This document shows, piece after piece, positions 5,646 through 48,119 of a stretch of 64,000 nucleotides of DNA. The notes beneath the pieces were generated by a model. That model was not told the DNA's origin. It was given only the letters and a program-made list of their open reading frames with translations, and searched no databases. The position numbers were made by a program, and so were the translations under genes. Source of the DNA: Deltaproteobacteria bacterium (GTDB lineage Bacteria; Desulfobacterota; Deferrisomatia; Deferrisomatales; BM512); contig PKTT01000023.1 of the NCBI GenBank assembly GCA_002869015.1, positions 1 to 64,000 of the forward strand. Direction: 5' to 3'. Within the stretch, counting starts at the first letter, position 1. Each line of letters opens with the position of its first letter.

Positions 5646-7910
5646 ATGAACTTTTCAATTCGTATTCCAATAATTCTCGGGTCGATTCTTCTGGTCTGGA
5701 GCACCCACCTAATAATAGCCCCATACTCCTATGTGAACTCTGAGCGGGTTTTAAAGCAGCATGCCCGCGATATCATGCAGAACATCTCCGACCTGACCCT
5801 TGAGCAGTCCTACAACCATCTTAGCAAGGCAACCAGCGCCGCACACCTCGCAAAGCAGCTTTTGAGCTCCGATATCTTCGGTAATTATGACGACGGATTG
5901 GGCTCTCTAGAGAGGTACTTCTTTGATCAGCTGACGATACACCCTCACTTGGCAGGGATATATTTCGGTAACCCGAAGGGTGATTTCTTCTATGTAAGTC
6001 GAAATGATTCAAAGGTGCCCGGCGGGTTTCGCACCAAAATAATCAGGAACACCCCCGAGGGCTGGGATGTTGAGCTCAGGTGGCGTGAGGATGATTACAC
6101 CTTTCTCGGCCGCGACCACACCCCCGAGGACACTTACGATCCAAGGACACGCCCCTGGTACAAAAAGGTTATGGAGCAGAGGCGTATCGTCTGGACTTCT
6201 CCATACATCTTTTTCACCTCCAAAAAACCAGGGGTTACCATCGCGGGTCCGGCCTTCAAGGACTTCGAGGAGATGAAGGGGATAGTAGGCGTTGATATTG
6301 AGATTGATGAGCTCTCATCTTTTATAGGTAGGCTACGGGTTGGAAAAGAGGGCAAGGCCTTTATATTCAACAGAGATCTGGATGTAATCGCCTTTCACGA
6401 TATGAATAAGCTGACTGTTCCCAGCGATGACAAGGGCGGGCTGAGGTTGGCTAAGCTCAAAGATCTGGGTGACCCCGTAATAGAGGCAGCCTACAACGCG
6501 GTTGATTGGGATCGACAACCAGATGGCGAGATTAAATTTTCCGAGCCGAAGTATATAAATTATGAGTTCGGGGGGGAGAACTATATGGCGATGTTCACCC
6601 CATTCCCCGGAGCTGAGCTCTCATGGATTATTGGGGTCTACGTGCCAGAAAACGACTATCTTGGCTCGCTAAAAGAGAATCAGAACATCCTTTTTTATGC
6701 GACGGTTCTGGTAACCATACTGGCATCATGGCTTGCCCTTAAATTCGCGGGCAGGATAACAAGACCAATCGAAAGCCTTCAGAAAGAGGCGCGGGCAATC
6801 GAGGAGAATGACCTTAAAACTCGCTTTGATATAGATTCCAGCTTTTCAGAGATTCAGGAGACCGCCAACTCATTTGCAAGGATGAAGGCCTCTTTAATCC
6901 ACTTCAAAGACAGGCTCAGGGAGCGCGAGGAGATTTACCGGGCCATCACTAAGAGCGCGAATGATGCCATAGTGATGATCGACGCCAGCAGGAGAGTCTC
7001 CTACTGGAACCCGGCGGCGGAGAAGCTCTTCGGCTATAAGGAAAAGGAGGCCCTGGGGCGTGATGTAGCCGATCTCCTGGCCCCGGAGCGATTCGCCCAA
7101 GAAGCAAAAGAGGGCTTTGCCAAATTCATTTCAACCGGCGATGGCCCCTACTCGAACGCAGCCATAGAGATAAAGTGCCGCAACAAGGTGGGGCATGAGC
7201 TTCCGGTTGAGCTTTCCCTCTCAAGGATTCAAGTCGGCGGCGCCTGGCAGGTGGCGGGCATCTTCCGCGATGTAACTGAACGAAAGAAGGGGGAGAACCT
7301 GAAAAAGCAACTTGTGCGCGACCTTCATGACGGTATAGGAGGGAATCTCGCTAATATCAAGCTCCTCTCGGAGATGGTTAAGCAGGGCGGCGGGGGAGAG
7401 TTCTCTGATAAGGCCCTTGAGAGTATCTCAGAGGTTTCAGACAGCTGCATCTCTGAGATACGCAACTATATGAATGTGCTGGACAACAAAAACCTCGATT
7501 GGGAGGAGGTTACCTCAGAGCTCAGGCAATATTGCGGCAAGACCCTTGAGCCCCATCGAATCACCTTTGAGATGGTGAGCAGCATTGAGGATGGTAGCGC
7601 TGCTCCTTCCACCCTCGCCTATATGAATATATTTAAGATAGTGAGAGAGGCAGTGACGAATATTATAAAGCACTCCGGCGCTGATAAAGCGCGTCTCTGC
7701 CTATCGGTAACTGTAGAGGAGTTTGAACTGGTTATCTCAGACAATGGGAACGCCGTTCCAAGAAAATCAGGGAGCGGCAGGGGGCTGATGACTATGCAGT
7801 CTCGCGCCAAGGAGCTCGGCGGCACAATTACCTTCTCGTATGAGGGGGGTATGACCGTTACCCTACTAGTGCCGCTTAACGGAGCTGTCGAGTATCGGGG
7901 GAGAGTTTGA
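5646..7910 (+). CDS. Membrane sensor histidine kinase (Cache-HAMP-PAS-HisKA_3-HATPase)
   Basis: 754 residues. A first membrane helix (about 5-27) and a second (about 345-367) enclose a periplasmic double-Cache sensor of roughly 310 residues; the PRTRPWYKKVME block is diagnostic of Cache_1. Then come HAMP (FAGRITRPIESLQKEAR), PAS (about 425-545; AITKSANDAIVMID, GRDVADLL), the NarX/DegS-type dimerisation helix with phospho-acceptor His561 (RDLHDGIGGNLANIKLL), and an ATPase domain with REAVTNIIKHS and SDNG boxes. The partner is the regulator that starts one base after its stop. Cache domains usually bind small metabolites such as organic acids or amino acids; the ligand here is not predictable. 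Confidence 0.9.
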   Translation: MNFSIRIPIILGSILLVWSTHLIIAPYSYVNSERVLKQHARDIMQNISDLTLEQSYNHLSKATSAAHLAKQLLSSDIFGNYDDGLGSLERYFFDQLTIHPHLAGIYFGNPKGDFFYVSRNDSKVPGGFRTKIIRNTPEGWDVELRWREDDYTFLGRDHTPEDTYDPRTRPWYKKVMEQRRIVWTSPYIFFTSKKPGVTIAGPAFKDFEEMKGIVGVDIEIDELSSFIGRLRVGKEGKAFIFNRDLDVIAFHDMNKLTVPSDDKGGLRLAKLKDLGDPVIEAAYNAVDWDRQPDGEIKFSEPKYINYEFGGENYMAMFTPFPGAELSWIIGVYVPENDYLGSLKENQNILFYATVLVTILASWLALKFAGRITRPIESLQKEARAIEENDLKTRFDIDSSFSEIQETANSFARMKASLIHFKDRLREREEIYRAITKSANDAIVMIDASRRVSYWNPAAEKLFGYKEKEALGRDVADLLAPERFAQEAKEGFAKFISTGDGPYSNAAIEIKCRNKVGHELPVELSLSRIQVGGAWQVAGIFRDVTERKKGENLKKQLVRDLHDGIGGNLANIKLLSEMVKQGGGGEFSDKALESISEVSDSCISEIRNYMNVLDNKNLDWEEVTSELRQYCGKTLEPHRITFEMVSSIEDGSAAPSTLAYMNIFKIVREAVTNIIKHSGADKARLCLSVTVEEFELVISDNGNAVPRKSGSGRGLMTMQSRAKELGGTITFSYEGGMTVTLLVPLNGAVEYRGRV

Positions 7911-7911
7911 T

Positions 7912-8535
7912 ATGAGGGTGCTAATCGTCGAAGACAATACTGCGTTGAGGGAAAGCCTTGTTATGCTGCTCTCCGGTGAAGATGATTTTGAGATAACCGG
8001 CAGCTATGGAACAGCCGAGGAGGCGATGGAGGCCATGGCTGAGGAGCCGCCTGATATCCTCCTGGTGGACCTTGGTCTGCCCGGGATGTCGGGCACGGAC
8101 CTGATTAAGTGGGTCAAGGAAAACGCTTCTGATGTGGATATAATGGTTCACACCATCTTCGATGACCGCGACAACGTCTTTTCCGCCATAAAAGCGGGAG
8201 CATCCAGCTACATCCTTAAGGGTGCCAAGCCACGCGAGCTTGTGGAGGCAATTCTGGACCTGCGCTCAGGCGGCGCGCCGATGAGTCCTAAAATTGCGCG
8301 GGCTGTGATAGGTGAGTTCCAGGAGGTAAAGGTTCACAATGATTTTCTTCTTACGGTCAGGGAGAAGGAGGTCCTCGTAGGGCTTGAGCGCGGCCTTACC
8401 TATAAAGAGTTGGCTGAACGCATGAATGTTAGCCACCATACTGTTCATACCCACATAAAACATATCTATGAGAAGCTTCAGGCAAAGGGCAGGCGAGAAG
8501 CGCTCTCAAAAGCCAAAAACAAGGGCATAATTTAG
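7912..8535 (+). CDS. NarL/FixJ-type response regulator
   Basis: 207 residues: receiver domain (1-120) with acidic pair E7/D8, phospho-acceptor Asp53 (ILLVDLGLPG) and a conserved Lys (YILKGAKP), then a LuxR-type helix-turn-helix (about 140-205; LTVREKEVLVGLERGLTYKELAERM, shown here in parts: KEVLVGLERG and NVSHHTVHTHIKHIYEKL). It begins one base after the histidine kinase stop codon, so the two form a cognate pair. Targets are not visible; the porin with a sigma-54-type promoter is not an obvious target because NarL-type regulators act with sigma-70. Confidence 0.9.
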   Translation: MRVLIVEDNTALRESLVMLLSGEDDFEITGSYGTAEEAMEAMAEEPPDILLVDLGLPGMSGTDLIKWVKENASDVDIMVHTIFDDRDNVFSAIKAGASSYILKGAKPRELVEAILDLRSGGAPMSPKIARAVIGEFQEVKVHNDFLLTVREKEVLVGLERGLTYKELAERMNVSHHTVHTHIKHIYEKLQAKGRREALSKAKNKGII

Positions 8536-9680: not shown

Positions 9681-10883
9681 TTGAGCGCCTTGCCGAGAAA
9701 AATATTCTACCCATTTCTATTTCCAGGAGGCCTGATTTGGGCCGCAGCCATATTGCTCTTCCTCTATGGAGATGGGGCCATAGTATCTCACCCTGTCGTT
9801 TCTTGGTTGCCGATTATCGTGCTGCTTTTGAGTCTCTTTATTGGGTGGCGCTTTAACAGGGGAAAGCTGCCACTAGTAATACTGCTCGTATACGCAGCCT
9901 CTTATCTACTCGCTGAGTCCCAAAGCCTTTTAGGTGGAGACTTAAACGCTACTATTTCAATCCTGCTGCCGCTAAATTATGCGCTCCTTGCTTTTGGCTC
10001 GGAGAGAGGTTTCTTTTCACTGGCGCTCTTACTTAAAGCATCCTTCATTGTATTGCAGGCCGGTGCGGTATTGCTTCTTCACAGGGTTTTGGGAGGGGAC
10101 TTTCACAGCTACATAGCTTTTTCGCCGGTTGCACATCCTATCTTTGATGGTATTTGGATGCCGCAGCTTGGTCTGGCTGCTTTTCTCGCGACAGCAGTCC
10201 TTATGCTGCTTAGATTCCTGGCTCGAAAGACGGCTGTGGATGCCGCCTTGTTCTGGGGCATTGTATCGCTTTTTTCGGGGATGATTTATGGAGGCGCGCC
10301 TCTCTTTTTCTCGGCGGCAGCGCTGCTGCTTCTCGCGGGGCTGGTTGAGGGCTTTCACTTCCTCGCATTTAGGGATGAGCTGACCTCATTGCCTACCCGC
10401 CGCGCCTTTAACGAGACTCTTTTGAGTTGCAAAGCGCCAACTACAGTCGCCATAGCTGATATTGACCACTTCAAAAGGGTCAATTACCGCTATGGCCACG
10501 ATGTAGGCGATCAGGTTCTCAAGATGGTCTCCTCCAGACTCTCAAGGGTTGGCGGGGGAGGGAGGGCATTTCGCTACGGTGGAGAAGAGTTCGCCCTTAT
10601 ATTCCATGGATCAAAGGGTGAGAGTGCTAAAGATGAGCTTGAGGAGTTGCGTGCCGCCATCTCATCGACCCCATTTGTTTTAAGGGGAATCCTGAGGCCG
10701 ATATCCTCCTCCTCATCAAGAAACAGGAGCAAAAAAAATCCTAGGCCGCTAAGGGTAACCATTTCGATAGGTTTTTCAGAGGTAAGGGAGGGGGACCAAT
10801 CCCCTGTAGATGCGGTGACCCGTGCGGACAAGGCTCTCTACAAATCTAAAAAGGGAGGGAGAAATAGGGTTACAGGCGGTTGA
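9681..10883 (+). CDS. Membrane diguanylate cyclase (GGDEF)
   Basis: 400 residues. The first 230 hold about seven hydrophobic helices with no large soluble loop, a membrane-embedded sensor of unclassified type. The GGDEF domain follows (about 235-400) with DELTSLPTRRAFNE, DIDHFKRVNYRYGHDVGDQ and the active-site GGEEF at 300-304, so c-di-GMP synthesis is expected. The inhibitory I-site RxxD five residues before GGEEF is absent (the region reads LSRVGGGGRAFRY), so product feedback may be lost. A serine/arginine-rich insert (ISSSSSRNRSKKNPRP) lies before the last strands (VTISIGFSE). The TTG start has AGGAG nine bases upstream. Transcribed alone. Confidence 0.9.
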   Translation: MSALPRKIFYPFLFPGGLIWAAAILLFLYGDGAIVSHPVVSWLPIIVLLLSLFIGWRFNRGKLPLVILLVYAASYLLAESQSLLGGDLNATISILLPLNYALLAFGSERGFFSLALLLKASFIVLQAGAVLLLHRVLGGDFHSYIAFSPVAHPIFDGIWMPQLGLAAFLATAVLMLLRFLARKTAVDAALFWGIVSLFSGMIYGGAPLFFSAAALLLLAGLVEGFHFLAFRDELTSLPTRRAFNETLLSCKAPTTVAIADIDHFKRVNYRYGHDVGDQVLKMVSSRLSRVGGGGRAFRYGGEEFALIFHGSKGESAKDELEELRAAISSTPFVLRGILRPISSSSSRNRSKKNPRPLRVTISIGFSEVREGDQSPVDAVTRADKALYKSKKGGRNRVTGG

Positions 10884-25969: not shown

Positions 25970-26318
25970 TGACGCGGAGATATCCCTATGGATTTGTGAC
26001 GATGAAACCATAAGGGGCCTGCACGATCAATACTTCGGCCTCGACACACCAACTAATGTAATCAGTTTCTCCCAACGGGAGGGAGAATTCGACGAAGTTG
26101 AACCAGACCTCCTAGGTGACGTCGTAGTGAGCTTTGAAACAGCGGCTCGCGACAGCGTCGAGGCGGGGCACTCCGTCGAGGATGAGATAACCTTCCTCTT
26201 TATTCACGGCTTCCTCCACCTCATAGGTTTTGACCACGAGGGCGAGCGCCTTTGTGACGCACCGGAGATGGAAGCCAAGGAGGAGGAGCTCTTTAAACTT
26301 GTCAGGGAAATGGATTGA
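25872..26318 (+). CDS. ybeY: Endoribonuclease YbeY
   Basis: 148 residues, the normal length. The zinc-binding signature HGFLHLIGFDHE is complete, and the conserved NVISFS precedes it. YbeY is a metal-dependent RNase for 16S rRNA 3'-end maturation and ribosome quality control. The ATG at 25872 lies 98 bases inside pgpH with GGAAG upstream; the family's N-terminal strand would be lost at any later start, so the overlap looks genuine. The next gene starts at its stop codon (TTGA overlap). Confidence 0.92.
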   Translation: MEIWLRDDSPKGCVDEGRLLRRAKRISSALGYDDAEISLWICDDETIRGLHDQYFGLDTPTNVISFSQREGEFDEVEPDLLGDVVVSFETAARDSVEAGHSVEDEITFLFIHGFLHLIGFDHEGERLCDAPEMEAKEEELFKLVREMD

Positions 26319-27181
26319 CGGTGGCTGAAGGCGAAAGATCATTTTTAGGCAGGATAATCGCGAAATTTAAGGGAGAGCGCGGCGAACGCGACCTCGTTCG
26401 CGAGATGGAGGAGCTCATAGAAGAGGGCTCCGCAGAGGGCCTCATAAACTCCGACGAAGGGGAGATGCTCCTCTCCGTGCTTGAGTTTCGCAGCACCCTC
26501 GTAAGGGAGATAATGATACCCCGCACAGAGATGGTGTGCGGGGAGGTGAACGCATCGGTGGGTGAGATCATAAAGCTGATGATTGAGGGGGGGCACTCCA
26601 GAATACCAATCTATGAGGGTGACGTAGACCATGTAGTTGGAGTTGTCCATGCGAGAGACCTGCTCGAATTCTGGGGCAGCGAAGATAATAAAATCTCTTT
26701 GGTGCAGCTTATAAGGCCCGCCTACTTCGTTCCGGAGACGATGGCGATTGAAAACCTCTTGCGCGAGCTGAGAGATAGAAAAGTTCACATGGCTATTGCC
26801 GTCGATGAGTATGGGGGAGTATCCGGCCTCGCCACCCTTGAGGATGTGATTGAGGAGATAATCGGCGATATCCAGGATGAGTGGGATGATGAGGATGAGC
26901 CGATGGTTAGAGAGCTCTCCGACGGGTATGAAGTTGACGGGCGCTGCGAGATTGAGGAGCTTAACGAGGCTATAGGAGTAGAGATGGAAGCTGACGGTGA
27001 GTTCGAAACTGTTGGCGGCCTGGTCTTAGACGAGCTTGGACGCGTTCCTTCTCCGGGTGAATCCTTCACCAAAGGGGACTTTGACTTTGTGGTCCGCGAT
27101 GCGGATAAGCGGCGAGTGAAGTCAGTTATGATTAGGCGGCGAAAGGGGTCGGGGGGAGCCGAGGAAGATGGAGAGGGATAA
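26315..27181 (+). CDS. CorC/HlyC-family CBS-domain protein
   Basis: 288 residues: a short acidic start, two CBS domains (about 65-195; MIPRTEMVCGEVNASVGEI, HSRIPIYEGDVDHVVGVVHA in parts, VDEYGGVSGLATLEDVIEEI) and a C-terminal CorC_HlyC transporter-associated domain (DGRCEIEELNEAIG, ETVGGLVLDELGRVP). There are no membrane helices, as in CorC. Such proteins are linked to Mg2+/Co2+ resistance and envelope integrity, and are commonly coded beside ybeY. TTG at 26315 overlaps the ybeY stop; GTG at 26321 is an alternative. It overlaps the CheR gene by 14 bases. Confidence 0.88.
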   Translation: MTVAEGERSFLGRIIAKFKGERGERDLVREMEELIEEGSAEGLINSDEGEMLLSVLEFRSTLVREIMIPRTEMVCGEVNASVGEIIKLMIEGGHSRIPIYEGDVDHVVGVVHARDLLEFWGSEDNKISLVQLIRPAYFVPETMAIENLLRELRDRKVHMAIAVDEYGGVSGLATLEDVIEEIIGDIQDEWDDEDEPMVRELSDGYEVDGRCEIEELNEAIGVEMEADGEFETVGGLVLDELGRVPSPGESFTKGDFDFVVRDADKRRVKSVMIRRRKGSGGAEEDGEG

Positions 27182-28928
27182 AGCTAGAATTATAGCAGTC
27201 GCCCAGAGTAAGGAGCGCGCGCGCCAGATAGCGGAGTTGGTCAACCGCACCTCATTTTCCGCCATACACACACACGATCTTTTGGGCGCCTTATTCCATG
27301 AGCCAAACCTCTTAATAATCGATCCCACCTCCTGGGAGAGCTCCTGCAGGATGATTCTTGAGGAGTTTGAGAGTAGGGACTATCCTCCTCCAGCGGTATA
27401 TTTAATAGGCGGCGGGTTGGAGCTTGCCTTCTCCGCAGGGCCTGCTCTTGGTGTAATTAGCGATGACGAACACCCCTTCACCTTAGGTGAGAAGATTCGG
27501 ATGGCGCTGGCCGCCCAACGTATCTTCGCCTCTTCATGGAAGCGCCTTAGAAGTGCCTTTGAAAAACATTTTATGGACCGGACTGAGAAGCTTCTATTGG
27601 AGCGAACAGGGGTGCGAGTCCGGGAAGACCGCCTCTTGGCGCTCAGAAGAGCGATCTTCGCTCGCGGGATCGCCAGGCTTTCAAACAGCCCCCAAGAGCT
27701 TGAGCGTTGCCTCGCGGACCCTTCGGGTGAGCTTGACCTTTCCATCCTCGTGACCCGCGTTGTCGCCCCAGAGACTTATTTTTGGCGTTATTCAGGCCAG
27801 ATGAATGCGCTTAAAAAACTTTTGGAAGGGCGCTGCAAAGATGGTTCCGATGAAATTAAGGTGCTCTGCGCCGGATGCTCAACCGGTGAGGAGGCTTACT
27901 CCGTTGCCTTTGCCATAAAGGAGGCTTTCGGTGGTGGCGCAGACTTTCATGTTTGGGGAACAGATATAAACCTCCACGCAATTGAGGTCGCCAAAAGAAG
28001 GCGCTATACAAATCATTCAGTCAGAAACCTGCCGGAGCGCTTTATAGGCCGCTGGATAGTTCGGGATCAGGAGGAGTGGGTCGTCTCTGAAGAGCTTGAG
28101 CGCCATGTCACCTTCGAGGGGATGAACCTCCTTGGAGGGGACACTGAGAGCTGGCTTAAGGAACACGGGCCCTTTGATGCAATCTTTTGCCGCAATGTGA
28201 CCATATATTTCGACCCTGCCAAGACTAGGCTACTGCATGAGCTTATGACCTCCTCAATCGCAAATGGAGGAGGATATTTTCTCGGTTCCTCCGAGATGCT
28301 CCTAAAAATTCCCGATGGTTTTACAGCCGTTCATGATTCGGGCTCTTTCTACTACCTAAAGAGTGATGCTATCTCTGCCGTAGAGGAAGAGGCGCGATTG
28401 GCCGACGAAGAAGCTGAATTGGAGGTAAAGGTTGACGCAGCCTACCGAAGCGGTCTCCGTGCCCTGGCAAAGGAGGACACCAGAGGAGCCAGCGACGCCT
28501 TTTCGGAGCTTGAAAAGCTCTCCCCCAATGACCCCCGCACAATGACCGGCGCGGCGGTGCTGCTCTCCAACGAGGGGAGAGAGAAGGAAGCGCGTGAGAA
28601 AGTTCTTGTAGCTCTGGAGTGCGAAAAGGTGCCGGCGGAAGCCTTCTTCCTTGCCGGTCTCCTTGAAGAGAGGCAGGGGCACGATAGCGAAGCGCTCTCC
28701 ATGTATGGAATGGCGCTAGGGCAGGATGAAAACTTTTTCATGGCGCATGTCAACCGTGCGTGGATACTTCGCAGGCGGCAATGTATCAAGGCTTTCAGGA
28801 AAGAGATGGAGGCTGCACTTGAGATACTGCGAAAGAGCCCTCAGAAAGCCTCCTGGGCAACGGGCGGACTTGGGTTCGACACAATTTTAAGGATGGTTGC
28901 CGACGCCCTCGCAGAGGAGCCTAATTAA
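27168..28928 (+). CDS. CheR-type methyltransferase with N-terminal pseudo-receiver and C-terminal TPR
   Basis: 586 residues in three parts. Residues 1-120 resemble a receiver domain (LLIIDPTSW) but lack the acidic pair on strand one. Residues about 130-410 are CheR: VVAPETYFWR, VLCAGCSTGEEAYSVA (SAM loop, from 232), WGTDINLHAIEVAKRRRY and FDAIFCRNVTIYFD. Residues about 430-586 form TPR-like helices (RGASDAFSELEKLSPND, DPRTMTGAAVLLSNEGREKE, VNRAWILRRRQC). CheR with TPR is the WspC pattern. It methylates chemoreceptor glutamates, here probably those of the receptor encoded two genes downstream. First gene of the chemosensory operon, reached through from corC by a 14-base overlap. Confidence 0.88.
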   Translation: MERDKARIIAVAQSKERARQIAELVNRTSFSAIHTHDLLGALFHEPNLLIIDPTSWESSCRMILEEFESRDYPPPAVYLIGGGLELAFSAGPALGVISDDEHPFTLGEKIRMALAAQRIFASSWKRLRSAFEKHFMDRTEKLLLERTGVRVREDRLLALRRAIFARGIARLSNSPQELERCLADPSGELDLSILVTRVVAPETYFWRYSGQMNALKKLLEGRCKDGSDEIKVLCAGCSTGEEAYSVAFAIKEAFGGGADFHVWGTDINLHAIEVAKRRRYTNHSVRNLPERFIGRWIVRDQEEWVVSEELERHVTFEGMNLLGGDTESWLKEHGPFDAIFCRNVTIYFDPAKTRLLHELMTSSIANGGGYFLGSSEMLLKIPDGFTAVHDSGSFYYLKSDAISAVEEEARLADEEAELEVKVDAAYRSGLRALAKEDTRGASDAFSELEKLSPNDPRTMTGAAVLLSNEGREKEAREKVLVALECEKVPAEAFFLAGLLEERQGHDSEALSMYGMALGQDENFFMAHVNRAWILRRRQCIKAFRKEMEAALEILRKSPQKASWATGGLGFDTILRMVADALAEEPN

Positions 28929-28933
28929 AAAAA

Positions 28934-29482
28934 ATGAGCAAGGCGGGTTTCAAGAACCGGTTCAGCGAGGAGGAGCGCCTTCGCTTCTGGGCCGAGATGG
29001 AAGCAAGGGCGGAGAAGCTAAAAGAGCCCGATGGCGACCCGCATCTTGTATTCAAGGTTGGTGGAGCGAGCTTTGCCATTGACGCGACACTATCCCTTGG
29101 GGTGCTTCCCTGGACCCAGCCGACCCCGCTGCCCTTTCTCCCTAGGCACTTGAAGGGGGTCACATTCCTGCGCGGGCGGATAATATCAGTGACTTCGCTA
29201 GCTGTTTTGCTCGGCGTAGAGCCTAGCGCAAAGCCCAGCTATTACGTGATAGTAAAAGCTGGTGAGCTGGAGACTGCCCTGGAGGTCGAGGGTGTTGAGG
29301 CGGTGCTTTCGATTGACTTAGAAAAAGTCGATAGTGCCAAAGGCCTATGGAGAGGAGCGAGGATAGGGCTTGTAACGGGGCAAGCGCCGGAGCGGGTTCC
29401 GCCTATTTATATCATTGACGTTGAACGATGCCTGAGACAGAGGGCAACGGTTGAAACATTTTCTGGAGGGTTGAATGATTAA
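28934..29482 (+). CDS. cheW: CheW-type coupling protein
   Basis: 182 residues. The CheW fold occupies about 35-175: [40 protein letters not shown] (the GxxxxRGxIxxV strand pair) and [20 protein letters not shown]. The N-terminal 30 residues are charged and helical, longer than in canonical CheW. It bridges the chemoreceptor and CheA. Its stop overlaps the receptor start by eight bases, so the pair is co-translated. Only one CheW is present, against two (WspB, WspD) in the Pseudomonas Wsp system. Confidence 0.88.
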
Positions 29483-31112
29483 CTTCATGAAGAAGAGCCT
29501 GACAGTGAAGGTTACCTTCGCAATCATCACGATGATGATCATTGTCTTCGGTCTAATGGGTTGGTATTCGCTCAAAAGGTCGAGCACCACCATCGCCGAG
29601 ACGGAGATGAGGTGGAACAAACACTTCGCCTTCTTTGTCGATGACGTGATGCAGCACTATATGCAGGACAATGACCCGGAAGGGTTGGAGCATTTCATAA
29701 GCGAGGCTTCAAAGTCCAGCGGCTTTAAAATGCTGAAAGTCATAAACGCTGATAAAGAGATAAGTTTTTCAAATGAAAGAGATGAGATAGGGCGCTTTAC
29801 CGCTAACCCGGAGGTAGCGGCGCTGTTGCTGGAGGTAGAGCGGACAAGGCAGCCCGGGACAATTTTGAATGGCTCCATAAGTATAACAGCGGTGCCCCTT
29901 ATAGCTGATGAGGGCTGCTCGGTCTGCCATCCCCCCTACGGCAGATATCTTGGTACGACTGTGATAGGCAGCGATATTTCTGAGGCAAACGCAAATATCA
30001 ACAACATATTTTTTGAGGGAACATTTCTCTTTGTCGCGGCGCTCCTGATAATCATAGCCGTCCTCTACTTTTCAATGAGAAAACTGGTTCTTTCGCCACT
30101 TTTCAGGCTCGTACGGGATGCAAAAAAAGTTTCTCAGGGCGACCTTGCGCACCGTTTCAGGCTGGAGAGTGAAGATGAGATGCGTGAACTGGCGGACCAC
30201 CTCGAAACCATGCAGTCACAGCTGCGCTCGACCATAGCTGAACTGGCTGATGTCAATAACTCAATTGTCGGCGCTATCGATGAGTTGGATACCTCCAGCG
30301 AATCTTTGGTCGGCCTCTCAGCGGAGCAGGCTAGCGGAGCCGCCGAGCAGGCCGCCGCTGTGCATGAGGTCACCACCTCTGCGCAGGAGATCGCGACTAC
30401 CTCGGCGCAGATATCGGCAAACGTTGAGTCGATCAGGAAGATGGCGGAGGATGCCTTTGACGCGTGCCTCCAGGGCCGCAAGGACGTTAAGGATGCCATC
30501 AACGGGATGAGCTTGGTCCGGGACAAGGTGAGCTCTATCTCGGAAGCCACCGTTGAGCTTGGGCGAAAATCACATAAAATTGGTGGTGTCATCTCAATAA
30601 TCGACGAGATATCAGAGCAAACGCACCTCCTTGCCCTAAACGCAGCTATTGAAGCCGCCGGGGCGGGCGAGCATGGAAAACGCTTCGGAGTCGTTGCCAC
30701 AGAGGTGAGGCGTCTCGCCGAGCGTACAGTGGAGGCGACGGCTGAGATAAAGGCGCTGATTGAAGAGATACAGGAATCAACTAACGAAACTGTGATGATA
30801 ACCGAACGCGGCTCCGATATCGTGCGTGATGGCACCTCCAAGGTCGATCTTGTCGGTGATACCCTTGAGACACTTAGCAAAAGAGTTGAGATGACAAAGG
30901 AGTCTGCCAAGGAGATGGCGATAGCGACCCGGCAGCAAGCTACCGCCGGGGAGCAGCTTGTCCTCACCATTACAGATATAAACTCGGTCGCTGTTCAGGT
31001 GAGCCGCGCGGCAGAGAAGGTGGAGAAGAACGCCATGGGGCTAAAATCCATCTCCCTTAAATTAAAAGAGCTAAGGGAGAGGGCGCAGTTGCTGGACAAG
31101 TACAAGCTCTAG
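29475..31112 (+). CDS. Chemoreceptor with periplasmic heme-c site
   Basis: 545 residues. Membrane helices at about 12-32 and 177-200 enclose a 145-residue periplasmic sensor. In it the motif CSVCH (Cys148, Cys151, His152), followed by [10 protein letters not shown], is a covalent heme-c attachment site. HAMP follows ([20 protein letters not shown]), then the coiled-coil signalling domain with tip [20 protein letters not shown] and [20 protein letters not shown]. Glu/Gln-rich helices supply methylation sites for CheR/CheB. It resembles the redox/oxygen-sensing heme receptors of Desulfovibrio (DcrA) and Geobacter in principle. No C-terminal CheR-docking pentapeptide is present. It should feed the hybrid CheA downstream. 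Confidence 0.9.
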
Positions 31113-31123
31113 GATGAGCGCCT

Positions 31124-33220
31124 ATGCTTGAGCAGTCCAAGTATATAGAGATATTTCTCGATGAGGGGAGAGATATTCTATGCTCCCTGGAGAAGGAGCT
31201 CTTAGCCCTTGAGCGGGACCCCTCATCCTTTGAGGCTATCTCCACGGCGCTCAGGCTTTCGCATACCTTGAAGGGCTCTTCAAGGATGGTTGGGCTTGCC
31301 GGCGTCAGCAATGCCGCTCATGGCATAGAAAATATTCTCGAGATGCTCGGCTCCTCAAAAGAGGATGTATCCGGGGATGACTTCGCATTTGTCTTTGACG
31401 TCATAGACAAAATCAAATCGCTCTTCGAGTCCATCTCAGCGGGCGAGGTCTCAGACCTTGAGATGGACTTTCCAAACATTGCGACCAAAGAAGGGGCGAA
31501 GAGCTTCGAAGAAAAAGGTACCAAAGAGCAGAAGGCACCTAATAAATCCACTGCCAAAGGTATCCGCAAACCTCTCCTTTCCCTTGATTTGGATAGCGCA
31601 GATAGCGCCCCATCCAAGAGGCTTGGTGACGCGTTAAGAGTCAGGCTCGAAAAGTTAGACTCCTTGATGGAGGAGCTTGAAAATGCCACTGTCGCCTCCC
31701 GTAACCTCGCAGATCGCATTGCCTCGATTTATCCGGCAGCTCAGAATACCGAAGACAAGTTCTCCTCTGGAGCGTTAAGGGTTGAGAGTGAGCGTTTGGA
31801 GGCTTTGGTCTCCAGCGCGAGAAACGCTGTGGTTGAGATGCGAATGCTGCCTGTTGCGTCTCTCTTTGACCAGTATCCACGGATGGTGCGTGACATAGCG
31901 GCAGACCTTGATAAAGAGGTAGAACTTAAAATTGAGGGTGGTGACCTTGAGCTGGACAAGCACCTCATGGAGGATATATACGGCTCTTTGACCCATCTTG
32001 TAAGGAACGCCCTCGACCACGGTATTGAGAGGCCCGATGAAAGAGCCTTACGAGGTAAGGAGCGGGGAGGCGTTATATCACTCAGAGCCTATCAGCGGCC
32101 GGGGGCAGTGGTTGTAGAGGTTGAAGATGACGGCAACGGGATTGACGCCGATACTTTGAGGAGCGTTGCTATTAAGAAGGGTTTCTTGCAACCCTCGGAA
32201 GCTCAAGCCATGGAGGATGAGGACCTATTCTACCTTCTTTTAAAGCCTGCTTTTACAACTCGCCGTGAAGCGGATCAGCTCTCGGGTAGGGGCGTTGGGC
32301 TTGATGTAGTGAAAAATATGATTGACTCTGTACACGGCACAATGACAATCAAAAGTGAAAAGGGTAGATTCACGCGCTTCAGTCTCTATCTTCCGAAATC
32401 CTATTCAGGCCTGAAGGGAGTCGAGGTCATTTCTGGCGGCGTGCCGGTCGTCATTCCCACGCTCTTTGTGGAAAAGTGCTTTACCGTTGGCGCTGAAGAG
32501 TTTCAGCGGCGTGATGGCCGCGTAGCATATCTGGGAGAGAAGCTACACCTCGTAAGCCTTGGCCTTCTTCTCGGAAGAGCAGTTGAGGATATATCAACTG
32601 GTATTGAGGTTCTAGTCCTGCGTTTCAGGGATAGACGGATGGCTCTTGCTGTTGAGAGTGTTGTAGGCGATGCGGAGTTTCTCCTCAAGGGTACGGGCAG
32701 GCACCTTGAGGAGGAGGGAGCGTCCTTGCTTGGCATTACAATTACAAGGGAGGGTATACCAGCCCCTGTATTTGATGTGCGTTATCTCGCGGAGCGTTGG
32801 GCCGGGTTGGAGTTTTCCTGCCGCGTTCCCCTGCCAAAGGTAAAGCGAAAACTCAAGATCCTGGTGGTCGATGATGCATTGACTTCTTTGCACGTTATCT
32901 CCTCCTTTGTAGGAGCTATGGGGCACAGCGTCTTTCAGGCACACGATGGGGCCGAAGCTTGGAGCATGATGGAGGATTACCCCGTCGACCTGGTCGTGAC
33001 TGATATGGAGATGCCCGAGATTGACGGCATTGAGTTGACCAGGAGAATAAGGCGTAGTGAGTGGTTCAAAAAGACGCCGGTAGTGATGGTGTCGGTAAAG
33101 GGCGAAGAGACGATTGTCAGCAGAGCTTTCGAGGCGGGGGCAAATGCCTTCATCCACAAGGAGCGGTTGGATGGGGCCAGCCTTGAGAAGACAATAAAGA
33201 ATCTCTTGCCCGATATTTGA
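31124..33220 (+). CDS. CheA-type hybrid histidine kinase with C-terminal receiver
   Basis: 698 residues. Hpt domain at 1-110 with phospho-acceptor His47 (LRLSHTLKGSSRMVG); a variable linker to about 165; dimerisation helices; ATPase (about 285-430) with LVRNALDHGIE, VEDDGNGID and GRGVGLDVVKNMID; a CheW-like domain (about 435-570); and a receiver from about 577, with Asp583/584 and phospho-acceptor Asp627 (VVTDMEMPEIDG). No CheY/CheB-binding P2 domain is apparent. The CheA-REC architecture is that of WspE. The fused receiver may act as a phosphate sink or a target for tuning. It starts 11 bases after the receptor. Confidence 0.92.
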   Translation: MLEQSKYIEIFLDEGRDILCSLEKELLALERDPSSFEAISTALRLSHTLKGSSRMVGLAGVSNAAHGIENILEMLGSSKEDVSGDDFAFVFDVIDKIKSLFESISAGEVSDLEMDFPNIATKEGAKSFEEKGTKEQKAPNKSTAKGIRKPLLSLDLDSADSAPSKRLGDALRVRLEKLDSLMEELENATVASRNLADRIASIYPAAQNTEDKFSSGALRVESERLEALVSSARNAVVEMRMLPVASLFDQYPRMVRDIAADLDKEVELKIEGGDLELDKHLMEDIYGSLTHLVRNALDHGIERPDERALRGKERGGVISLRAYQRPGAVVVEVEDDGNGIDADTLRSVAIKKGFLQPSEAQAMEDEDLFYLLLKPAFTTRREADQLSGRGVGLDVVKNMIDSVHGTMTIKSEKGRFTRFSLYLPKSYSGLKGVEVISGGVPVVIPTLFVEKCFTVGAEEFQRRDGRVAYLGEKLHLVSLGLLLGRAVEDISTGIEVLVLRFRDRRMALAVESVVGDAEFLLKGTGRHLEEEGASLLGITITREGIPAPVFDVRYLAERWAGLEFSCRVPLPKVKRKLKILVVDDALTSLHVISSFVGAMGHSVFQAHDGAEAWSMMEDYPVDLVVTDMEMPEIDGIELTRRIRRSEWFKKTPVVMVSVKGEETIVSRAFEAGANAFIHKERLDGASLEKTIKNLLPDI

Positions 33221-33264
33221 GGGTTGTTTATTTATATTATATTTAGAATGTTTGGGAAGGGTTA

Positions 33265-35301
33265 ATGATTAGGGTACTTATTACCGATGATTCTCGGCTT
33301 GTAAGGGGCGTCCTCAGGGAAATTATAGAGGATGACCCCGAGATCACTGTAATCGCTGAAGCATCCAATGGCGCCGAGGCGGTAGAGATATGTATAAAGG
33401 AGCGCCCTGACGTAGTTTTAATGGACGTTCAGATGCCTGTGATGGACGGCATCGAATCCGTCAGGCGCATAATGCAGTCTGCGCCCACTCCGGTTATAGT
33501 GCTTTCAGCATCCGTTAAATCAAGCGAGACTCGCTCTGCATTCGCTGCGCTATCCGCAGGGGCAATAGATGCAATTGCAAAACCCCACGGCATAGTTTCA
33601 GCTGATACGTATAGCTCCATAGCCGATGACATCATAGGCAGGATCAAGCTTTATGCTAGGGTAGCAAAAAAAGGTAAGCTGGATACCGAAGAGCATCCAC
33701 GGAACAACGAACAAATATCATCTCCCGCAATTTCCTCAAGCGTAATTGCCATTGGCGCTTCTACCGGAGGCCCCAGAAGTCTCTCCGCGCTGCTTTCAGC
33801 TTTAAAACCCGATTTCCCTTGCCCGATACTTTTGGTTCAGCACATAAGCGAGGGCTTCATGCGTGGCTTCTCCGAGTGGCTGGGCAGGGAAATCTCTTTG
33901 GAGGTGGTGATTGTAGACCATGCGATGAGGCTGGAACCCGGCCGTGTTTACCTGCCCCCCGACGGGTACCACCTTGAGGTCGCAAGAGGCGCTGCCGTAT
34001 TGAGTGAAGCTCCTCCGCTGCATGGATGTCGCCCGGCTGTTGATGTGCTCTTTAAATCCCTAGCGGAGGAATATGGGGAGAGAGCTATTGGTGTAGTTCT
34101 AACCGGTATCGGAGTCGACGGCGCCGCAGGCGCGGCGGCAATAAAGGCTGTCGGTGGTATGGTGATAGCGCAGGATGAAGAGTCCTCGGTTATCTTCGGA
34201 ATGCCCAAAGCGGTTATAGAACGCGACGCCGCGACACATGTCGCAAGCCTTCAAAATATGCCCAAGTTGCTAAGTGAATTGGCAAGCGCTCATGCAGATG
34301 ATAACGGCGGGCTCTTCGGCGCCTCGCAGCGGGTAAACGAGGTCCTAGTGGTCGATGACAGCCCTACGATGAGGGCTGTGCTATACGATATTTTAACCGC
34401 ACACGGGCATAGTGTGCGCCAAGCTGAGAATGGGCGCCTCGCTTTGCAGGAAATCTCAAGGCAAGAGCCGGACCTGATAGTGCTGGATGTGATGATGCCA
34501 GAGCTTGATGGCTACTCCGTTTGCCGTAGAGTGCGTGAGGATTACGGCTATATACCCGTGCTAATGGTTACCGCCAAGGGCTCTTCAGAGGATATGGTCA
34601 GGGCCCTTGAGGCCGGGGCCGATGATTGTATTGCCAAGCCCTTCGAGCCGATGGAGCTCTCCGCCAGGGTTCAGTCGCTCCTTCGTATACGCTCATTACA
34701 CCAACGGCTCTTTACGCAAAATAATGAATTGGAAGCTAAAAACAGAGAGCTAGAGCGGCTCGCCCGCGCGCTTAACCGCGCCAACAAAGAGCTGACCCTG
34801 CTCTCCGTCACAGATGGGTTAACCAAGGCTTACAACCATCGCCATTTCCAGGAGCGTTTCAAGTCTGAATTTGCCCGCTCCGAGCGTTATGGGACTTTGC
34901 TCTCCATAATCCTGATCGACATTGACCACTTTAAAAGAGTTAATGATAACTACGGACACCCCGTCGGCGATCAGGTGCTCATCCATCTTGTTGAGGTGCT
35001 TGAGGAGTCAGTACGAAAAGAGGACCTTGTCGCCAGGTATGGCGGCGAGGAATTTATCTTGATGCTCCCGGAAACCTCAGGCCCCAGGGCGCTCCTCTTG
35101 GCTAAGAGAATCAGAGAGAGAATCGAGCAGAGCGAGGTGGTGATAGATGCCTCACTTTCGGTCCGCTATACGGTGAGCCTTGGGGTATCCTCCTATGAGC
35201 CGGGGGGTAAGGTGCAGACGGCAGAGGCGCTCATTGCAAAGGCCGATTCGGCCCTTTACAGCGCAAAGGCAAATGGTCGCAACCGCGCAGAGATGGCTTG
35301 A
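33265..35301 (+). CDS. CheB methylesterase fused to REC-GGDEF diguanylate cyclase
   Basis: 678 residues, four domains. REC1 1-125 (Asp54, VLMDVQMPVMDG). CheB methylesterase 157-345 with catalytic Ser166 (GASTGGP), His193 (VQHISEGF) and Asp285 (GIGVDGAAG). REC2 358-475 (Asp408, IVLDVMMPELDGY; Lys458). A coiled linker (about 478-512) leads to GGDEF 515-678 with DIDHFKRVNDNYGH, active site GGEEF 593-597 and an intact I-site RKED at 584-587. REC-CheB is the WspF layout and REC-GGDEF the WspR layout, here in one chain. It should both demethylate the receptor and make c-di-GMP when CheA phosphorylates its receivers. An AT-rich 44-base gap precedes it. Confidence 0.93.
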   Translation: MIRVLITDDSRLVRGVLREIIEDDPEITVIAEASNGAEAVEICIKERPDVVLMDVQMPVMDGIESVRRIMQSAPTPVIVLSASVKSSETRSAFAALSAGAIDAIAKPHGIVSADTYSSIADDIIGRIKLYARVAKKGKLDTEEHPRNNEQISSPAISSSVIAIGASTGGPRSLSALLSALKPDFPCPILLVQHISEGFMRGFSEWLGREISLEVVIVDHAMRLEPGRVYLPPDGYHLEVARGAAVLSEAPPLHGCRPAVDVLFKSLAEEYGERAIGVVLTGIGVDGAAGAAAIKAVGGMVIAQDEESSVIFGMPKAVIERDAATHVASLQNMPKLLSELASAHADDNGGLFGASQRVNEVLVVDDSPTMRAVLYDILTAHGHSVRQAENGRLALQEISRQEPDLIVLDVMMPELDGYSVCRRVREDYGYIPVLMVTAKGSSEDMVRALEAGADDCIAKPFEPMELSARVQSLLRIRSLHQRLFTQNNELEAKNRELERLARALNRANKELTLLSVTDGLTKAYNHRHFQERFKSEFARSERYGTLLSIILIDIDHFKRVNDNYGHPVGDQVLIHLVEVLEESVRKEDLVARYGGEEFILMLPETSGPRALLLAKRIRERIEQSEVVIDASLSVRYTVSLGVSSYEPGGKVQTAEALIAKADSALYSAKANGRNRAEMA

Positions 35302-36838
35302 CCTAAGGGTACCCGCCCTGGCGGCGTGGGGTGCCTTTGTAGGCGCCGCCGCGTTCGCTCCCGTAGGCTGGTGGCCCCTTGCCATGATTGCCCTCGTCCC
35401 CCTTTGGACAATTGCAATGACCGAGGGCCCGAGGCGCTGCGCTTTATTCGGTTTCTCATTTGGCGTGGGCTTTTTTTGCGCCTCCCTATATTTTTTAATC
35501 GAGACCCTTCGCGTGCACGGCTACATGGCGCTGCCGTTGGCTCTCTCAACCTACCTCCTGCTAGTATTTTATCTTTCGCTCTACCCTATGCTCTCTACAG
35601 CGCTAATAGGTTATGTCGCTAAAGTAAGCCCCGCTATAGCGCTGGTTGTTGCCCCCTTTGCATGGACCGGCTTTGAATGGCTAAGGGGTGAGGTCATCAT
35701 CGGTTTCCCTTGGGGAGATCTGCCGATGGCTCTTTGGCGTCTACGAACGGCGCTTGACCTTGCTCCGATATTGGGGGTTGGCGGCGTTCGCCTACTTATG
35801 GCCTCAATTTCAGTGGCGGGTGTGTTCATCCTGCTTCCGAAAAAGACCCGGCAGGGCGCGCGCTACGCTTTAATATTGCCTTTGGCCGCTTTGGTGCTCT
35901 CCTTAGCGCTGCCAAAAGCCGTGGAAATTAAAAGCGAGGTTCTCGGCAAGGGGGACATCGCCATAATTCAGGGGAATATCCCCCAAAGCGAGAAGTGGCT
36001 ACCCGGTATGCGCCAGGAGACGCTTAACCGTTACCGCCGCTTAACCCTTGATGCGGTAGCTGGTACTCCACCTGATTTTATCCTCTGGCCGGAGACCGCC
36101 ATGCCTTCGAGGGTTCCCGTCGGTTCAAGCGGGCGACGTTTTGTTGAGAAACTGGCCCGGTCGGCAAAGAGCTCAATAATCTTTGGCGCTCCTTCTAATG
36201 TCTACAAAGATGGCGGCGTAAAGGAGTCAAGAAATTCTGTCTATGGCGTTACCCAAAATGGGAATTTCACTGGACGGTACGACAAGGTAAAGCTGGTGCC
36301 TTTCGGCGAGTACGTCCCCTTTGAGCGCTACCTGCCCTTTGTAAAGAAAATTTCAAGTGCTGCGGGAAACTTCAGGCCGGGAGAGGGATTCTTGAGCCTG
36401 CCGCTGGGAATCACCGAAGATGCGCGAAGAGTTGGGTCATTGATCTGCTTTGAATCGCTATTCCCAGCCTTCGCCACCGCACAGGCTAGAGGAGGTGCCA
36501 ATATTTTAGCTGTGGTCACCAATGATTCATGGTTCGGAGACTCTTCAGCCCCCTCAAGGCACCTCGCCTACTCTGCGTGGCGGGCCGCGGAGAACGGCCT
36601 CTGGCTTATAAGAGCGGCAAATACTGGAATAAGCGCTATATTTGATGAGCGCGGCGAACTCATAAAGTCCACATCTCTGGATGAGACTACCTTCTTGAGG
36701 GGGGAGGTCGAATATAGAGCAAGCGAAGGTTTATTACAGGGCGCTCTAAGGCCTTGGGTGGAGCTCACCTCACTTCTCTTGGCTATAATAGCCCTTTTTG
36801 GTATTCTACGGCTCCGCCGCGCTGAAAGCAGCGGGTAA
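35273..36838 (+). CDS. lnt: Apolipoprotein N-acyltransferase
   Basis: 521 residues from ATG 35273, which overlaps the end of the CheB-GGDEF gene by 29 bases; the longer frame from 35180 adds only a non-homologous Arg-rich stretch. Six or so N-terminal membrane helices are followed by a periplasmic carbon-nitrogen hydrolase domain with the catalytic triad Glu (WPETAMPS), Lys (YDKVKLVPFGEYVPFE) and Cys (GSLICFESLFP), and a last membrane helix. Lnt adds the third acyl chain to lipoproteins, and the window encodes several substrates. Presence of lnt supports a Gram-negative envelope. Confidence 0.92.
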   Translation: MVATAQRWLDLRVPALAAWGAFVGAAAFAPVGWWPLAMIALVPLWTIAMTEGPRRCALFGFSFGVGFFCASLYFLIETLRVHGYMALPLALSTYLLLVFYLSLYPMLSTALIGYVAKVSPAIALVVAPFAWTGFEWLRGEVIIGFPWGDLPMALWRLRTALDLAPILGVGGVRLLMASISVAGVFILLPKKTRQGARYALILPLAALVLSLALPKAVEIKSEVLGKGDIAIIQGNIPQSEKWLPGMRQETLNRYRRLTLDAVAGTPPDFILWPETAMPSRVPVGSSGRRFVEKLARSAKSSIIFGAPSNVYKDGGVKESRNSVYGVTQNGNFTGRYDKVKLVPFGEYVPFERYLPFVKKISSAAGNFRPGEGFLSLPLGITEDARRVGSLICFESLFPAFATAQARGGANILAVVTNDSWFGDSSAPSRHLAYSAWRAAENGLWLIRAANTGISAIFDERGELIKSTSLDETTFLRGEVEYRASEGLLQGALRPWVELTSLLLAIIALFGILRLRRAESSG

Positions 36839-46424: not shown

Positions 46425-48119
46425 ATGATTCTCATTGCGAGCGACCACGGCGGCTTCGAGGTGAAAGAAGCTATAAAGGAACATTTGAAAGAGAGGGGGG
46501 TTGAGGTAGATGACCTCGGCACCACCAATACCGATTCGGTGGATTACCCCGACTTCGCCAGGAAGCTGGCCCGCCGCGTCGCGGATGACTCCCAAAGTAA
46601 GGGTATCCTCATCTGCGGTACGGGGATCGGAATGAGCATCGCCGCCAACAAAGTGCCTGGCATCAGGGCCGCCCTTGTTGCCGATACCTTCTCTGCTAAG
46701 ATGGCTAAGGAGCACAACAATGCCAATGTCATAGCAGTTGGTGGACGTACAAATACCCCCGCTGAGGCGAAGTCTCTTGTGGATGCCTGGCTCGATGCCG
46801 AGTTCGAGGGTAACCGCCACGCCCGGCGACTCAGTAAAATCTCTGAGATTGAAGAGACATACGGCATAGGAAGGTCAATTGCAGCCGAGGACCCGGAGGT
46901 ATTCTCCACGATAGTTGGCGAGGTCAAAAGAGAGGAAGAGACCATAGTCCTTATCGCCTCGGAGAACTACGCGTCGGAGGCAGTCCTCGAAGCGCAGGGC
47001 TCAGTCTTCACAAACAAGTACGCTGAGGGTTACCCCGGTGCGCGCTATTATGGCGGCTGTGAGTTTACCGACAAAGTTGAGAATCTCGCGATTGAGCGCG
47101 CCAAGGAGCTCTTCGGCGCGGAGCACGCCAACGTCCAGCCCATAGCAGGCTCAGCGGCAAATATGGCCGCTTATTATGCCCTGATAAATCCCGGCGACAA
47201 GGTTGTCTCAATGTCGCTCGCCCACGGCGGGCACCTGACCCACGGCGCCAAAGTCAGCTTCTCCGGCAGGCTCTACGATATAGTCCATTACTTTGTAGAA
47301 GAGGACACGGGCAAGATCGATTACGACAAGCTGTCTGAGCTGGTGAAGCAGGAGAAACCGCGCCTCCTAGTCGCCGGGGCCTCATCCTACTCGCGTACCC
47401 TCGATTTTCAACGTTTCCGTGAGATTGCCGACTCGGTTGGCGCGTATCTCATGGTCGACATGGCCCACATCGCGGGGCTTGTTGCGGGTGGGTCACACCC
47501 CAGCCCCGTGCCTTACGCTGATATAGTTACAACAACTACCCACAAAACCCTTCGGGGGCCACGCGGCGGCCTCATCCTCTGCAAGGCAAAGTATGCAGCC
47601 GCAGTGGACAAAGCTGTATTCCCCGGACTTCAGGGCGGCCCACTCGTCCACGCAGTCGCGGCTAAGGCGGTCGCCTTCCGGGAGGCCATGACCGAGGGTT
47701 TTAAAAAGTACGCCGAGATGGTAGTCAAGAACGCTGCCAGGATGGCGGAAGGTTTCAAAAAAGCTGGCTACGATGTGGTAAGCGGCGGCACCGATAACCA
47801 CCTCTTTCTCCTGGACCTCTCCTCGCGGGGGATCACCGGAGACGCAGCTGAGAAATCTCTCGATCGCGCAGGTATAACCTGCAACAAGAACGCGGTGCCC
47901 TACGACAAGCTTCCCCCCACTGTAACCTCCGGTATACGGATTGGTACGCCTATCCTGACGACCAGAGGCATGGGAGAGGAGGAGATGGACAGGGTTGTCG
48001 AGCTTATGATTCGCGTACTTGAAAATGTAGGCGACGCAAAGGTCGAAGCAAGCGTTAGGGAGGATGTGGCCGCGCTTTGCAGGCAGTTTCCCTTTTATGC
48101 CCATTTTCTCGCTGACTAA
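46425..48119 (+). CDS. RpiB-GlyA fusion: ribose-5-phosphate isomerase B and serine hydroxymethyltransferase
   Basis: One 564-residue frame joins two complete enzymes. Residues 1-143 are RpiB/LacAB ([14 protein letters not shown], catalytic Cys64 in [23 protein letters not shown]). Residues about 155-564 are GlyA ([46 protein letters not shown] Lys374 in [11 protein letters not shown]). The lengths equal the separate enzymes, and the junction ([20 protein letters not shown]) looks like the normal RpiB end running into the normal GlyA start. In related genomes rpiB and glyA are neighbours between fabF and the dCMP deaminase, so loss of the stop between them explains the fusion. Both active sites look functional. 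Confidence 0.94.

Follow-up and report, generated by a model that had tools for sequence, protein, structure and literature searches.

Five consecutive genes in a 64,000-nucleotide stretch of DNA from a Deltaproteobacteria bacterium (contig PKTT01000023.1; the whole stretch is henceforth termed the window) probably encode a non-flagellar, stand-alone chemosensory array of the ACF (alternative cellular function) kind that turns a redox or nitric oxide (NO) signal, received by a periplasmic heme, into cyclic di-GMP (c-di-GMP). Such an array probably serves a decision to settle or move on this signal, rather than the steering of swimming. Its ligand, output and phenotype we infer from gene content and homology: the heme as the input, CheA as the kinase phosphorylating both receivers of a fusion protein, and a surface- or pilus-related phenotype. 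Heme c chemoreceptors (MCPs), ACF arrays with cyclases, and CheR-TPR proteins are already known separately. In the open-access literature searched, we found no description of a c-di-GMP chemosensory operon with a heme c receptor of its own or of a CheB-GGDEF fusion. The signal sensed by Wsp-type receptors is a long-standing question, and an array of one receptor and one kinase with a defined periplasmic cofactor offers a chemically controllable input to a Wsp-type pathway. The CheB-GGDEF fusion makes a shared phosphate source of adaptation and c-di-GMP output directly testable, and the array would couple life on surfaces to redox or NO status in a bacterium apparently without flagella.

Operon architecture, conservation and genome context

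The original prediction described a nearly contiguous block of CheR-TPR, CheW, a CxxCH-containing chemoreceptor, CheA-REC and CheB-REC-GGDEF, in this order, with short gaps or overlaps and no separate CheY. ORF and Pfam analysis recovered all five genes in that arrangement (Table 1). They run in the same direction across 27168–35301 with no gap or overlap above 44 bp: cheR overlaps corC by 14 bp, cheW lies 5 bp behind cheR and overlaps the receptor gene by 8 bp, and spacers of 11 and 44 bp separate mcp from cheA and cheA from cheB. No separate cheY occurs within the block. At its far end, the cheB-GGDEF gene runs into the lnt ORF. Overlapping corC on one side and lnt on the other, the che block may be co-transcribed with its envelope-housekeeping neighbors.

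Table 1. Features of the chemosensory locus, in positions of the window.
Feature	Position	Strand	Basis
Flanking CorC/YbeX	26315..27181	+	synteny
CheR-TPR methyltransferase, 586 aa: receiver-like N-terminus, CheR SAM domain, 2-3 TPRs	27168..28928	+	PF01739 1.1e-39, TPR_16 6e-4
Degenerate receiver (pseudo-REC), CheR N-terminus	27168..27512	+	alignment
CheW	28934..29482	+	Pfam CheW 1e-16
Chemoreceptor (MCP), 545 aa	29475..31112	+	HAMP 2e-8, MCPsignal 3e-39
Periplasmic sCache_heme-type sensor domain	29556..30020	+	order profile vs PDB
Met63 codon, aligned with GSU0935 distal heme ligand Met60	29661..29663	+	alignments
CSVCH covalent heme c motif, residues 148-152	29916..29930	+	motif
CheA-REC hybrid kinase, 698 aa	31124..33220	+	Pfam Hpt, HATPase, CheW, REC
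REC-CheB-REC-GGDEF fusion, 678 aa	33265..35301	+	Pfam; CheB_methylest 3e-61, GGDEF 6e-46
CheB methylesterase domain	33745..34269	+	GASTGG, QH, LTGIGVDG motifs
PleD-like REC, coiled-coil linker, GGDEF	34342..35286	+	PDB search, cyclase tree
I-site RKED and active site GGEEF	35014..35055	+	motifs
Flanking Lnt (apolipoprotein N-acyltransferase)	35180..36838	+	synteny

Conservation of the gene order in related genomes, proposed as a check in the original prediction, was borne out in four families of the order, where synteny was read whole or as far as each contig reached. The relatives' locus reads PgpH-YbeY-CorC-[CheR-TPR, CheW, MCP, CheA-REC, CheB, REC-GGDEF]-Lnt-PrfB, and the block lies between corC/ybeX and lnt in every order relative with a readable locus. 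Since the same gene order is conserved in relatives with operon proteins about 28–94% identical, the pattern is far beyond chance. One member of the order, G009, gave no strong match. Across the order, the usual corC/ybeX-lnt pair (26315–36838 in the window) is split by the che block, which thus sits inside an envelope-housekeeping cluster.

A receiver-like region at the N-terminus of CheR had gone unmentioned in the original prediction. It aligns with receivers and keeps the beta3 Asp, while the acidic pair and the beta5 Lys are absent; a distant homologue (L148:9312-11150) has a full receiver (PF00072) at this place. CheA has its Hpt histidine at His47 and its C-terminal receiver aspartate at Asp627, and a domain search of the protein returned no P2-like match.

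The genome of the window (2.53 Mb, 95% complete, 67 contigs) is incomplete, so absences from it are strong, not absolute. A CheW-domain search of this genome detected a single pair, the free-standing CheW and CheA, and the MCP of the operon was the only chemoreceptor found. Neither of the flagellar markers FliG_C and FHIPEP gave a match. The genome encodes seven GGDEF proteins, i.e., six besides the fusion of the operon, as well as ten PilZ proteins, several T4P/T2S-type (T2SSE-family) ATPases and cytochrome c assembly genes; the search found no COX1-family oxidase or NO reductase. Control genomes gave matches in every genome search except that for Tll0287, where the window's own genome matched. 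Two more Tll0287-type (sCache_heme) domains occur in this genome outside MCPs, at C63:24151-24651 (L151) and C31:54370-54807 (L152).

The combination of a multidomain response regulator (GGDEF) with CheR-TPR and CheA-REC is a mark of ACF systems (PMC3447774), and together with the missing CheY, FliG_C and FHIPEP it upholds the non-flagellar, ACF-type wiring first proposed. Flagellar chemotaxis was ruled out on the same absences and on the position of CheA outside the E. coli clade.

The chemoreceptor and its probable heme sensor

Transmembrane helices are predicted at residues 9–27 and 183–201 of the receptor; CSVCH lies between them and therefore on the periplasmic side, so that the protein has the CxxCH-bearing Cache domain between two membrane helices typical of the sCache_heme/GSU0582 type. 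When the window sensor was compared with the PDB by phmmer, GSU0935 was the sole match (E 0.03), whereas a nine-sequence profile of the order retrieved GSU0582 (3B47, 4.8e-8) and GSU0935 (3B42, 6.4e-5) and nothing else credible. Against PF21563, the sensor scored E=9e-4 (19.9 bits, below the 27-bit cut-off), and the receptor did not match PF11845. Because the lone window sensor falls under the Pfam cut-off, the heme assignment rests on the order profile and on invariant residues. In both alignments, phmmer and profile, Met63 shares a column with the methionine corresponding to Met60 of GSU0935 (residue offset worked out from C140/H144), which is the distal heme ligand of that protein (PMC8396549). 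Met63, both cysteines and the histidine are invariant in nine relatives, all of which have a CX2CH or CX4CH motif (9/9; CX4CH in G003 and G008), and the sensor domains of relatives are 23–87% identical to that of the window. A chance CxxCH was ruled out by the invariant motif, Met63 and the homology to 3B42/3B47. These sequence data favor the covalent heme c of the original prediction, and the receptor very likely carries its heme outside the cell membrane. Two receptors of the same operon with CX4CH are found at L133:9926-11569 and L135:8701-10350 (CVVADCH and CSTAACH).

Of the three inputs initially considered, i.e., redox, oxygen and NO, oxygen is the weakest: neither of the two sCache_heme proteins tested forms a stable complex with O2 (PMC12889525, preprint), and no COX1-family oxidase was found in the genome.

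Compared with the 36H receptor Tar of E. coli, the signaling hairpin contains 14-residue insertions on both sides and a further 7 residues on the N-terminal side; it appears longer than 36H and roughly fits 40H. Methylation-site-like motifs (GAAEQAAA and ATRQQATA) are conserved, and the C-terminus carries no CheR-binding pentapeptide.

The fused output protein

The fifth protein, originally read as CheB-REC-GGDEF, has two receivers and is better described as REC-CheB-REC-GGDEF. Its receivers (including the receiver aspartate), CheB motifs, GGEEF and RKED I-site are all intact, and every relative of the order retains the GGEEF and I-site motifs of the cyclase. Judged by the GGEEF motif, the GGDEF domain looks active, as the original prediction presupposed. 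The REC-GGDEF part is nearer to PleD (9e-64) than to WspR (1e-46) in PDB searches. A cGAMP-type (Hypr) cyclase was considered and is unlikely, as the motif NDNYGHPVGD has the canonical form, which we take to be the signature that separates such cyclases from Hypr enzymes.

Each of the four remaining family genomes also encodes the full-length fusion (five genomes with that of the window), at 60–90% identity to the window protein, which ruled out an assembly artefact. Elsewhere in the order, six genomes from three families carry CheB and REC-GGDEF as separate, adjacent genes. Because the halves are fused in the window's own family and split but adjacent in the others, the fusion would have arisen at the level of the family, in an operon shared across the order; this would fit a stop codon lost from between two tandem genes. 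CheB placed next to, or fused with, REC-GGDEF would form a natural link between adaptation and output.

Relationship to Wsp and other chemosensory systems

Like the Wsp system of Pseudomonas, an ACF-class array with c-di-GMP output (PMC8846402), the operon unites CheR-TPR, CheA-REC, CheB and REC-GGDEF, lacks CheY and has a non-flagellar output. It differs in having one CheW instead of two (WspB, WspD), in a gene order of R-W-MCP-A-B/GGDEF instead of A-B-C-D-E-F-R, in the fusion of CheB to the cyclase, and in its heme Cache sensor, where the Wsp receptor WspA has a 4HB sensor (PMC8846402). For phylogenetic comparison, the Wsp-order operons of Pseudoduganella and Duganella, plus a partial one of Rugamonas, served as Wsp references, and the operons of PLSDB records H1 and H41 were read from ORFs. 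In the CheA tree, the order of the window forms its own clade (support 100/100), while the Wsp-order operons form another with G053 and G070 (100/100) that leaves the window outside; both clades lie separate from those of E. coli and of the ChpA type. The cyclases of the order likewise form their own clade (98/100), separate from that of WspR.

The idea of a reduced Wsp system by descent, as first put forward, is at odds with these separate clades, and we regard it as improbable. It would account for the shared components, and a topology in which the order is sister to Wsp, G053 and G070 was not rejected (p-AU 0.39); grouping the order with the named Wsp references alone, however, was rejected (p-AU 0.0002), and the single CheW, the different sensor and the PleD-like cyclase speak against it as well. 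The comparison suggests an array that works like Wsp but does not demonstrate Wsp descent.

Other systems share parts of this architecture. The Esn array of Geobacter sulfurreducens consists of an MCP of class 40H, CheW, CheA and the cyclase EsnD, makes c-di-GMP and is required for growth on electrodes (PMC5585712, PMC6456294). Like the window array, whose receptor roughly fits 40H, it connects an MCP, CheW and CheA to a diguanylate cyclase, a likeness of components, and it is linked to electron-acceptor life (PMC5585712, PMC6456294). Its genes are dispersed, however, and EsnA lacks a periplasmic domain, having a GAF in the cytoplasm instead. GSU0582 and GSU0935, of the sCache_heme family, share the sensor fold, CxxCH and the distal Met position, yet they are described in a model of redox-dependent motility (PMC8396549) and not as part of a dedicated c-di-GMP operon, whereas the window receptor is the sole one found in its genome. 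Chemosensory cluster 2 of Halomonas combines a 40H MCP, CheA-REC, CheR-TPR and a cyclase (PMC5907407), but includes CheY and an Hpt-REC-REC-GGDEF cyclase; the PA16-9 receptor examined has no heme motif, and CheA falls outside the clade of the window. Within the phylum, clusters of G041 and G072 (L147, L148) share the order CheR-TPR, CheW, MCP, CheA-REC, CheB, REC, but with a bare REC as output and a receptor without a heme motif.

Heme-motif receptors in other putative c-di-GMP arrays of the phylum

Homologous receptors with the heme motif (E ~1e-8 or better against the order profile) also occur beyond the order, in clusters in which CheB adjoins REC-GGDEF. These belong to two further CheA lineages that combine a heme receptor with CheB and REC-GGDEF. 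One is the Wsp lineage, with operons at L143:3877-13315 and L144:3986-13402 that encode a WspA-like MCP with periplasmic CLQCH, two CheWs (the second a CheW-like ORF), CheR, CheA-REC, CheB and REC-GGDEF. The other is an E. coli-like lineage that includes CheY (L141, L157, L161-L163). It is quite possible, if somewhat doubtful, that heme c Cache receptors joined c-di-GMP-producing arrays at least three separate times in the phylum. If so, chemotaxis-type redox sensing of c-di-GMP would constitute a recurring, undescribed type of signaling, and the window's fusion of CheB (adaptation) to GGDEF (output) would be its most compact form. The CLECH receptor of G083 was left out of the three lineages, since its sensor is not homologous; this chemoreceptor (L149:5731-7209) does not match the Cache-heme profile and lies beside CheB and REC-GGDEF.

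None of the eight sampled clusters without GGDEF (0/8) contained the heme motif; among them, receptors at L170:12311-14101 and L175:11388-13178 match the sensor profile over its initial part (E about 1e-8 to 1e-9) and have no heme motif. A family-level Fisher test gave p 0.004, a value that ignores tree structure and locus choice and counts the non-homologous sensor of G083. Phylogenetic control left only 3 independent pairs, with which significance is unreachable. Similarity to the query decided which loci entered the survey, and the phylogenetic test is underpowered, so the association between heme receptors and GGDEF is no more than suggestive.

Proposed mechanism and alternative readings

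In the mechanism that we favor, the Cache sensor would hold one covalent heme c, as motif and homologous fold suggest, and the distal Met63 would be freed or displaced when the iron is oxidized or NO binds, by analogy with GSU0582 and GSU0935. This ligand switch would be relayed via the second transmembrane helix and HAMP to the 40H-like hairpin and set CheA autophosphorylation through CheW. CheA would then pass phosphate to both receivers of the fusion protein, a partnering with GGDEF that we infer because the genes share an operon and the domains are fused. The second REC would activate the PleD-like GGDEF and raise c-di-GMP, subject to I-site feedback, and the first would activate the CheB methylesterase to reset the receptor in opposition to CheR-TPR; a single polypeptide would thereby deliver output and adaptation 1:1. 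The REC of CheA itself is probably a sink for phosphate or a brake, as has been reported for FrzE. Downstream, some of the ten PilZ proteins would respond to c-di-GMP, with type IV pili or surface life as plausible targets. As a counterpoint, the six other GGDEF proteins could dominate the c-di-GMP of the cell.

Surface sensing persists in WspA chimeras that carry other periplasmic domains (PMC8846402), so the main input may lie outside the heme domain. Such chimeras, together with the Wsp-like wiring of the operon, lend some weight to an array that mainly senses the state of the membrane or surface via its transmembrane and HAMP regions, with the heme domain in a tuning or structural role. 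We consider this unlikely, as a dispensable heme is hard to reconcile with a CxxCH/CX4CH motif and Met63 that are invariant over sensors only 23–87% identical to that of the window. Less likely still is direct, Frz- or Pil-like control of type IV pili through the CheA REC or protein contacts, with c-di-GMP secondary. The T2SSE-family ATPases and the missing flagellar markers would suit it, and Frz also has CheR-TPR (PMC3447774) and CheA-REC (PMC5907407), but no pil genes lie in the block or its conserved neighborhood, the ChpA-type CheA clade is separate, and GGDEF, with its active-site motif kept in every order relative, is the only dedicated effector domain.

Within the heme-based reading, the sensor might be a receptor for NO rather than for redox state, a sub-hypothesis whose confidence overlaps with that of the whole and which we regard as rather unlikely. 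A signaling-associated sCache_heme protein binds NO, releases it slowly and forms no stable O2 complex (PMC12889525, preprint). That protein, however, lacks an axial Cys and is predicted to be five-coordinate (PMC12889525), whereas the window sensor keeps Met63 like the GSU sensors. The latter show redox-linked Met release along with CO/NO binding, and their proposed switch is redox (PMC8396549); the lack of a detectable COX1-family NO reductase in the genome also weighs against NO.

Other features of the window

Elsewhere in the window, the segments 5646–8535 and 9681–10883 encode a dCache-HAMP-PAS histidine kinase together with a LuxR-type response regulator and, nearby, another GGDEF protein. 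At 46425–48119, a ribose-5-phosphate isomerase B (RpiB) domain and serine hydroxymethyltransferase share a single ORF.
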